A stretch of DNA of 64,000 bases from Ptychodera flava (Eukaryota; Hemichordata; Enteropneusta; Ptychoderidae). The notes beneath the pieces are model-generated. The model searched no databases and was not told where the DNA came from. It saw only the letters and a program-made list of their open reading frames with translations. Position numbers and translations under genes: made by a program. The stretch lies in NCBI RefSeq assembly GCF_041260155.1, contig NW_027248277.1:5887910-5951909 (forward strand), read 5' to 3'. How positions within the stretch are numbered: the first letter of the stretch is position 1; each line of letters opens with the position of its first letter. Shown piece by piece: positions 4,034 to 6,620 of the stretch.

Positions 4034-6620
4034 ATGGCCAAAACAAGTGCTGGAAAGCAATCAAGCAAAAGCTCTTCTTGCAGTGGAGGTAAGCTAACCT
4101 TCCATTTGCTCCTCTGGACAAACATACGTCACCTAACACAAATTTTTGACTAAGAGTATTGATTTTAAACATTTATGCACGCATTTCCTGTCACAAACAC
4201 GCAAGCTACACAAAGACTACAGTTGCTGCAGTTACAGTCACGAATATCATCAGGAGACAATATCAGTATTTATTTTTTTAGTACATGATTTTTATTAAAT
4301 CATGACTTGCTGAATCTTTGAGGATATTCTGGTTGCTGGATCAGCAGACAGTTGATACGAGTATGATTCCTTGGATGTCTATACTCACGAAATATCATTA
4401 TCAAATGTTAATGGCTTCAGTATTTGATATCAGGTCGGTCGAAAATGGCGAAATCTGGTACTGGAAAAGCAGCGATGAAACCCTCAAGAGGTATGTTATA
4501 CGCAAGTGTGCGCAAGTATATGGACCTAGGATGACAGAGAGGGGACTCACAGACAGACAAAGAGACGGGGAGATAGGAATACCGAGACAGTCATGTCTTC
4601 GTCATGATAACAAAATATGACAAATAATGATTTGGTAAATGTAAAGCTATCGCATCCTGTGCTTTCCACCATTATCTGAAAAGGAAAAAATATTTTAAAT
4701 TTCAAAGGGAAATGGTAAAAATATTGTGAATTTCAAAGGAATAATTTTTGAAGAAATACTACTTACTTGTAAAACTGCGTTCCTTCTCTTCTTCCATGTT
4801 ATGACATTGCAGGCTTGGCTATAATGTCACTATTATCTCAATTTAAAAGGTGGACCAAAAATGGTAAAATCTGGTGGTGGACATCCCCCAAGAGGTGAGA
4901 CAGAAATATGTGAAATTTTGTCCGGTGATATTACCAATCCGCATTTGTTTATATTTTTAATTCATGAGGAAACTGCATTGATGACATTTTTCCAGCAATT
5001 TTTCAATGGATTAGTACGTATCAGCTGAGCAACTTACATATTTCAAGTTCTCAGTGCATCACATTTTAATCTGACAATTTCTTTTCATGATCAGGCTGGC
5101 TAAACACAACAAAGAGTGGAATGGGAAAACGAAAGGGGAACAATTTTCAACCCTTCTATGGTAAGAAAAGATTAAGTCATCATCTGTTTGACATTCTCTA
5201 ATACATTCTTACATATATATATATACATATATATATATATATATATATATATATATATATATATATATATATATGTGTGTGTGTGTGTGTGTGTGTGTGT
5301 GTGTTTAATAATGAAACGTAACTAAGTAACAGATATTACTATGTACTTGAAATAATTTTTGTTATTATTTTTAACACTTTGCTTTAGCATTAAGTACTGA
5401 AATTTCAAATTAGAACACACACACACACACACACACACACACACACACACACACACACACACACACACACACACACACACACACATATATATATATATAT
5501 ATATATATATATATATATATATATATAGTACACAGGGTTGTGTTTATGTGTATGAGTGCATGCCCCATGCATGCATTCGTTATTCAATTAAAGCCATACT
5601 GTATCAGTAGAGATCTAATTACATGTGAAAACTTCTCCCACTTGTTCAATCTTAGGGCTCCTTGACGTCAACCTTAATGACTTGATCATTCAGCCTTAAA
5701 ATACTTGTGCAGATGGTTTTCTTTACATATTCTTTTGTGCTTTTGTAGCAAGTGTGAGTACAAGAATATGAACAAATATTCACACTGAGGTACTTATGAG
5801 GTGTCATCTTATATTTAGGTATGCCAAAAATGACAAAAGCCAAAGGTAAACCATCTACTAATCATCGCTCTTGGACAGCAGGTAGGCAGAAACAACAACA
5901 AGCAAGGGTACATATGACCTATAAAACGCAGAACTAATATGCTATTGTCACAATTATTAATATAAGCTCGGTTGGCTAATCGAAATTTCTTGTACACTTT
6001 GCTTGTTTGAACTCATATCATCACTGCAACAACGTAATAAACCTGGTCTTCAATGGAACAGCCCAGTAACTTAAAGCGTTGAGTAAGATACATGTCTTTT
6101 AAGGGTCCACTACAAGTTAGCTGACTTGTCAGCTTACAATCTCCCAAAACATGATTTCATATATATGTACCACAAACTTTGTTTATTCTCGTTATGTTAT
6201 CCTCCAATCAGGACATTCGATATTGCCCAGGACTGCTGCAAGTTGGAAAACCGGCAATAGCTTATCTTGGAATAGAGGTACGTAATGTTACTAGTAGTTT
6301 ATGACCATATTCATGTGTATTAGTGATTTGAGTTTGGTATGTTTAAAAAACTTGCCTTTTTAAAAGTGTGAATGGGACACATAAAATATGTTTGTTTTCT
6401 TGCAGGCATGGTGACTGGCAAAGCAGACAGAACAGTCCAACAGCGTCCCTTTTCTTGGCATACCGTCTCTAGCAAAGAGAAAACTATGTCAAAATGTACA
6501 AATTCGTTTATGAACGTCAATTATTCACACTCTGGAGTTATAATGAATGCGGTAGAGGAACAAACTCGAACCTACTATGAAAGGAAAACCACGCAAACAT
6601 ACTTTCAGTTTCAATGGTAG
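4034..6620 (+). CDS. Unrecognised seven-exon gene for a basic Lys/Gly/Ser-rich protein (188 aa), all introns phase 1
   Basis: I do not recognise this protein. Exons: 4034-4088, 4434-4490, 4850-4894, 5095-5160, 5819-5881, 6212-6277 and 6406-6620. Every intron has GT-AG ends and every junction is phase 1. The spliced length is 567 nt, an open frame of 188 residues plus stop. Exons 1-5 carry variants of one motif, roughly (P)KM-x-K-S-G-x-G-K: MAKTSAGK, KMAKSGTGK, KMVKSGGG, NTTKSGMGK and KMTKAKGK. Exon ends repeat Arg-Gly or Ala-Gly at the splice. Exons 5-7 instead repeat a Ser-Trp element (HRSWTAG, SLSWNRG, PFSWHTV). The last exon encodes an acidic/aromatic C-terminus ending YFQFQW. There is no signal peptide, no membrane segment and no cysteine pattern beyond two isolated cysteines. 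The basic repeated make-up could suit nucleic-acid or tubulin binding, but that is a guess. Extra small phase-1 exons may have been missed. Microsatellites fill introns 4 and surroundings. Confidence 0.65.
5214..5305. repeat. (TA)n(TG)n microsatellite
   Basis: Long alternating TA run passing directly into a TG run, within intron 4 of the seven-exon gene. Confidence 0.95.
5415..5527. repeat. (AC)n(AT)n microsatellite
   Basis: AC run followed by an AT run, roughly the mirror complement of the 5,214-5,305 tract 100 bp away. The two could pair as an inverted repeat inside the same intron. Confidence 0.95.

Follow-up and report, generated by a model that had tools for sequence, protein, structure and literature searches.

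The window, by which we mean the whole 64,000-nucleotide stretch of DNA analysed, carries on its forward strand, at 4034-6620, what is very probably a real animal protein-coding gene. Seven coding exons join into a single frame of 188 amino acids that closes with a TAG stop. The six introns all have GT-AG borders, lie in phase 1, and measure 128-658 nt, and each of the five internal exons is symmetric (1-1), 45-66 nt long, and of a length divisible by three. We regard the locus as a gene because of its splice-site scores, a chain of five mini-exons, the lone open frame, the exon GC content, the start-codon context, and a downstream AATAAA. Judged from the sequence, the reading of the whole that we moderately favour is a basic, multivalent-binding protein assembled from duplicated mini-exons.

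Gene model and the alternatives of chance and decay

The original prediction, seven exons with perfect joins and phase 1 introns throughout, was recovered at the same coordinates and with 188 amino acids plus a stop (Table 1). Splice sites were scored with an approximate metazoan matrix. On this scale all six donors lie at the 98.4-99.9th percentile among all forward-strand GTs, that is, in the top 1.6%, and five of the six acceptors rank between the 90.8th and 100th percentiles of AGs; the acceptor of exon 3, at the 70th, is the weakest junction. The junction codon encodes Gly in all six cases, which is no separate evidence because phase 1 splicing at the G/G consensus gives GGN.

Table 1. 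Coding exons and associated features of the locus (window positions; splice sites are marked by a slash; the left edge of the putative leader is arbitrary)
Feature	Position	Strand	Length (nt)	Remarks
Possible 5' untranslated leader exon	2041..2301	+		Putative; near-ideal donor GAG/GTGAGT, score 8.0
Possible 5' UTR portion of exon 1	3981..4033	+		Putative; acceptor CGACAG/GT, score 5.1, second in 2.0-6.7 kb
Exon 1	4034..4088	+	55	MAKTSAGKQSSKSSSCSG; TGA TAA in frame immediately 5'; A at -3, G at +4
Exon 2	4434..4490	+	57	Symmetric 1-1; (G)RSKMAKSGTGKAAMKPSR; splice scores and exon similarity
Exon 3	4850..4894	+	45	Symmetric 1-1; (G)GPKMVKSGGGHPPR; weakest acceptor
Exon 4	5095..5160	+	66	Symmetric 1-1; (G)WLNTTKSGMGKRKGNNFQPFY; splice scores and motif offset
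Exon 5	5819..5881	+	63	Symmetric 1-1; (G)MPKMTKAKGKPSTNHRSWTA; splice scores and exon similarity
Exon 6	6212..6277	+	66	Symmetric 1-1; (G)HSILPRTAASWKTGNSLSWNR; SW twice, basic motif absent
Exon 7	6406..6620	+	215	Final coding exon, carries stop; aromatic C-terminus; acceptor score 7.0, top in 2.0-6.7 kb
Poly(A) signal AATAAA	6705..6710	+		85 nt 3' of stop; more matches at 6782 and 7067

Exons picked by eye could be a product of chance, given the very many GT-AG pairs in non-coding DNA. A first scan of the whole window for phase 1-1 mini-exon candidates (donor score at least 4, acceptor score at least 0, nested candidates counted separately) returned 13 candidates on the forward strand and four on the reverse, and exons 2, 4, 5, and 6 are four of those 13. 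With the acceptor threshold cut to -1, a change made after exon 3 had been seen, the locus exons are five of 16 candidates and form a chain of five. The longest mini-exon chains in the real window contained 4, 5, and 3 members on the forward strand (phases 0, 1, and 2) and 2, 2, and 1 on the reverse. In 150 order-3 Markov sequences, which gave 450 strand-phase sets, the longest chain was zero in 12 sets, one in 345, two in 88, and three in five, and never more, although this null is somewhat lenient, its sets averaging 4.6 candidates compared with 6-16 in the real window. The phase 0 chain of four, at about 27.1-28.9 kb on the forward strand, adjoins a zinc-finger-like ORF and probably reflects real exons too; because this chain also falls at likely real exons, the scan seems to detect genes. 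The forward phase 2 chain of three consists of exons 2-4 of the present gene, which also lack stops in phase 2.

Across the joined exons, the other two forward frames contain 9 and 6 stops and the reverse frames 6, 8, and 7, and shuffling the join gave 11.6 stops on average, with none of 2000 shuffles free of stops. GC content is 43% in the exons and 33% in the introns; random pieces of the 3-11 kb region had a mean of 34%, and none of 5000 was as high as the exons. The start codon stands in a strong context. Chance draws some support from synonymous codon usage, since a score based on the two TRIM-NHL ORFs of the window did not distinguish the exons from random pieces (p = 0.54), and also from the weak exon 3 acceptor, the leniency of the chain null, and the lack of a homologue in Pfam or PDB searches. 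Set against these are the exon GC excess and an observed chain of five, while chains longer than three were absent from all 450 simulated sets, and we consider chance very unlikely as an explanation. The five-exon chain and the uniformly high-ranking donors thus bear out what had been claimed on this point.

A decayed gene, with exons still readable and with expression and selection lost, would fit both the missing codon bias and the substitutions between duplicated exons, where a third-position excess is not clear (4, 2, 4 and 5, 5, 4). Since all 188 codons are open, every GT-AG site is intact, and the start context and poly(A) signal are in place, we judge a pseudogene to be very unlikely.

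A basic motif repeated in exons 1-5

Exons 1-5 have in common the module [MT]-x-K-[STA]-x(1,2)-G-[KH]. In exons 2-5 the motif starts at an identical residue offset past the junction Gly, and in an alignment exon 1 has its initiator Met where exons 2, 3, and 5 have the module Met. A search pattern composed after the exons had been seen, K[SAT][GSK].?G[KH], had seven matches when the window was searched in all six frames. Of these, five fall in exons 1-5 and in frame, which, together with their common register in exons 2-5, argues further against chance. The motif is present in five of six exons, compared with a maximum of three of six in 20,000 within-exon residue shuffles, and the summed pairwise similarity of exons 1-5 is 223, compared with a mean of 149 and a maximum of 189 in 3000 shuffles.

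When exons were compared pair by pair, three of 21 pairs by protein and four of 15 by DNA fell below p = 0.05, uncorrected. The pairs 1-2, 2-3, and 3-5 are similar in protein and DNA alike (p = 0.001, p < 0.001, and p = 0.006 by DNA, uncorrected), while the fourth DNA pair, exons 1 and 6 (p = 0.022), misfits a scheme of duplication. The best pairwise protein p for exon 4 is 0.06, so that its membership depends on the motif. By protein, exon 6 did not resemble any of exons 1-5 (p > 0.1 in all five comparisons), and the sole feature that exon 7 shares with the other exons is the short SW motif. Ser-Trp occurs four times, once each in exons 5 and 7 and twice in exon 6; Ser precedes four of the six Trp residues (p = 0.004), a weaker signal, as the test was post hoc.

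On these grounds we think it likely, with considerable confidence, that exons 1-5 arose by the duplication of one symmetric mini-exon. The original prediction thus survives in part. Growth by exon duplication stands for exons 1-5, with exon 4 included through its motif, and does not extend to exons 6 and 7. Five exons had been described as opening with a similar basic motif, K-M-x-K-S-G-x-G-K; the basic motif does recur in exons 1-5, but the exact form is found in exon 2 only. The Ser-Trp motif ascribed to three later exons was found in exons 5, 6, and 7, with the post hoc probability given above. When exons 1-6, each with 100-base flanks, were compared by BLASTN, a single match fell below E 0.05, inside exons 2 and 3 (E 0.036), and any duplicated intron sequence is therefore beyond recognition now. 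No paralogue was found elsewhere in the window, where matches outside the locus had E values of 1.6 and 8.6.

Comparison with known exon arrays and the search for relatives

The layout of the gene is of a known kind, seen in collagens and schistosome micro-exon genes, where symmetric exons follow one another in runs; it is the protein that is unfamiliar. The earlier statement that no family with such a layout was known is too strong as a claim of novelty, since symmetric-exon runs (PMC4838654) and micro-exon genes (PMC10526429) exist. In the human genome, runs of at least three adjacent same-phase symmetric exons have been counted as a class, and their excess of disorder is largely gone once collagens are left out (PMC4838654). 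The present gene is like collagens in having at least three adjacent symmetric exons in one phase (PMC4838654), and unlike them in that its product has no Gly-X-Y repeat and no Pfam collagen match.

According to PMC10526429, a schistosome micro-exon gene consists of an array of mini-exons, most of them in frame. Such genes have 10-20 short exons, the great majority of 15 bp, and their signal peptide is constant; their exons range from 6 to 81 bp and are mostly multiples of three, and the authors report that automatic annotation struggled to trace such genes. The runs of very short exons are alike, and the internal exons of 45-66 nt fall inside that 6-81 bp range, whereas here there are only five internal exons, none of them 15 bp long. 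Troponin T (TNNT3) also has a stretch of its gene in which a run of exons is alternatively spliced (PMC2447309), whereas a splicing choice is predicted here and the product has no Pfam match of any kind.

The signal peptide of the schistosome genes has no counterpart in our hydropathy scan of the product, in which no signal-peptide-like stretch was found (the top hydrophobic 11-mer starting in residues 1-30 scored -0.08). Elastin (tropoelastin) likewise has small in-frame phase 1 exons, Gly at the junctions, and exon skipping, and it has a signal peptide and hydrophobic exons that alternate with cross-link exons. The product here differs in having neither a signal-peptide-like stretch nor such an alternation. 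If expressed, the gene would be a compact case of protein growth through repeated duplication of one exon of 15-22 residues, and its frame-neutral exons would turn repeat number into a splicing choice. Genes of this type easily escape automatic annotation because their exons are short and no domain model covers them.

Relatives of the predicted product were not found in the collections searched (Pfam, PDB, and viral and prokaryotic contigs). The 188-residue product matched zero Pfam families at E ≤ 10, a PDB search by sequence gave no significant match (best E 0.15), and a profile of the five modules had no PDB match at E ≤ 10. Two PDB entries of ribosomal protein S11 (E 0.15 and 0.16) aligned over the basic part and were judged compositional. 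For exon 7, viral contigs yielded four pattern-matching stretches and no relatives. The pattern also matched 39 stretches in prokaryote genome contigs, two of which (L001 and L002) were called relatives, at 46% identity over 24 residues and with an E value of 4e-5 that refers to the candidate stretches alone; in each, the search pattern QRPFSWHT accounts for eight of the 11 identities, and we took both for chance. Rfam gave no matches in the window at gathering scores, and the gene was not recognised in the literature searched.

Predicted product, its 5' leader, and the surrounding sequence

The predicted product has a pI of 10.9, with 33 Lys/Arg (17.6%), five Asp/Glu, and six Trp among its 188 residues, and its composition is rich in Lys, Ser, and Gly. 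Exons 1-6 encode 24 Lys/Arg and no Asp/Glu, and all five acidic residues are in exon 7. We infer that the protein is mostly disordered, and, because a hydrophobic leader is absent, it is most likely intracellular. From the repeated basic motif and the frame-neutral exons we propose multivalent binding to an acidic partner, with the dose set by splicing. The repeated polybasic motif would bind an acidic partner or polymer many-fold, the most plausible targets being microtubules, through their acidic tails, or another polyanion. Omission of any internal exon would leave the frame intact, so that splicing could set the number of binding motifs, and the aromatic last exon would act as a fixed anchor.

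These parts of the proposal differ in strength. Polyanion binding is a tentative suggestion, and microtubules in particular, though the partner we favour, have a low probability. A relation to solved axonemal chains was looked for in the PDB, where no match was better than E 0.15; short divergent proteins can escape sequence search. A further reading, of low probability, is that the gene represents a taxon-restricted family in which a microtubule- or nucleic-acid-binding polybasic motif was born in one symmetric mini-exon, was multiplied by exon duplication, and is tuned by splicing, with the exon 1 Met derived from the module Met.

The main rival on function is a DNA-packing role as a sperm nuclear basic protein, which would suit the high pI, the Lys/Ser/Gly-rich composition, and the lack of acidic residues in exons 1-6; such proteins also differ among animal lineages (PMC9917458). 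The Lys/Arg content of the product, 33 in 188 residues, is modest for this role. Protamines and protamine-like proteins have a Lys/Arg share far above 17.6%, and Trp, of which there are six here, is atypical for sperm nuclear basic proteins. We therefore consider this function unlikely. An in-frame array of mini-exons with small linear motifs might also encode a secreted matrix or defence protein that uses exon skipping as variation, as schistosome micro-exon proteins do. This is improbable in view of the hydropathy result (-0.08) and of the in-frame stops immediately 5' of the ATG, which argue against an upstream coding exon in this frame.

A 5' untranslated leader may lie upstream of the coding exons, judging from the donor at 2301 and the acceptor at 3981. 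This donor is one of four among 3853 forward-strand GTs that score at least 7.9, and CpG observed/expected at the putative leader is 0.94 and 1.01 in two 250-base bins, compared with 0.20-0.79 in the bins of 4001-8000. A leader spliced in this way would contain an upstream ORF of 42 residues whose stop overlaps the ATG by one base. Over a wider range, again in 250-base bins, the CpG ratio declines from 0.75-1.28 over 1001-3000 to 0.20-0.78 over 5001-8000, a drop that would be consistent with a promoter region ahead of a methylated gene body; the low values continue beyond the gene. A relaxed phase 1-1 scan of 2.0-6.7 kb returned 13 rows, five of which are exons 2-6. None of the others was taken as an additional cassette exon or alternative form: three candidates at 2.37-2.72 kb, one at 5694-5753 (intronic, clear of the exons, and lacking the basic motif), one at 4895-4924 abutting the 3' end of exon 3, a truncated version of exon 5 (5819-5845), and extended versions of exons 2 and 3.

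The surrounding genes look animal, because TRIM-NHL proteins and a methionyl-tRNA synthetase fragment lie nearby. Two genes with RING, B-box, filamin, and NHL parts (TRIM-NHL), at 12924-15116 and 37844-40035 on the forward strand, are about 25 kb apart and closely similar by eye. The second runs through two ORFs that differ in frame and share positions 39451-39517, so this copy may be decayed or mis-sequenced. An ORF at 36326-36700 (reverse strand) is a methionyl-tRNA synthetase fragment, with the cytoplasmic Met-tRNA ligase as its best solved relative, and an ORF at 45386-45832 (reverse strand), for which Pfam gave no match, looks by eye like the GST-like part of this synthetase. At 26610-28910 on the forward strand, an ORF with a zf-C17orf113 match under the Pfam cut-off is followed by phase 0 mini-exon candidates, presumably, from their look by eye, of a hAT-derived gene.

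Several repeats were also observed. A 33-bp tandem repeat in four copies lies at 7616-7748, about 1 kb 3' of the gene. Telomere-like GGTTAG repeats stand opposite a complementary TAACCC array in an inverted arrangement (11320-11434 and 11459-11545), flanked by TTTG and AACA tetranucleotide arrays. A long tandem array occupies 61472-64000, and a 696-residue ORF that overlaps it (61164-63254, reverse strand) encodes highly charged D/E/K/R repeats.
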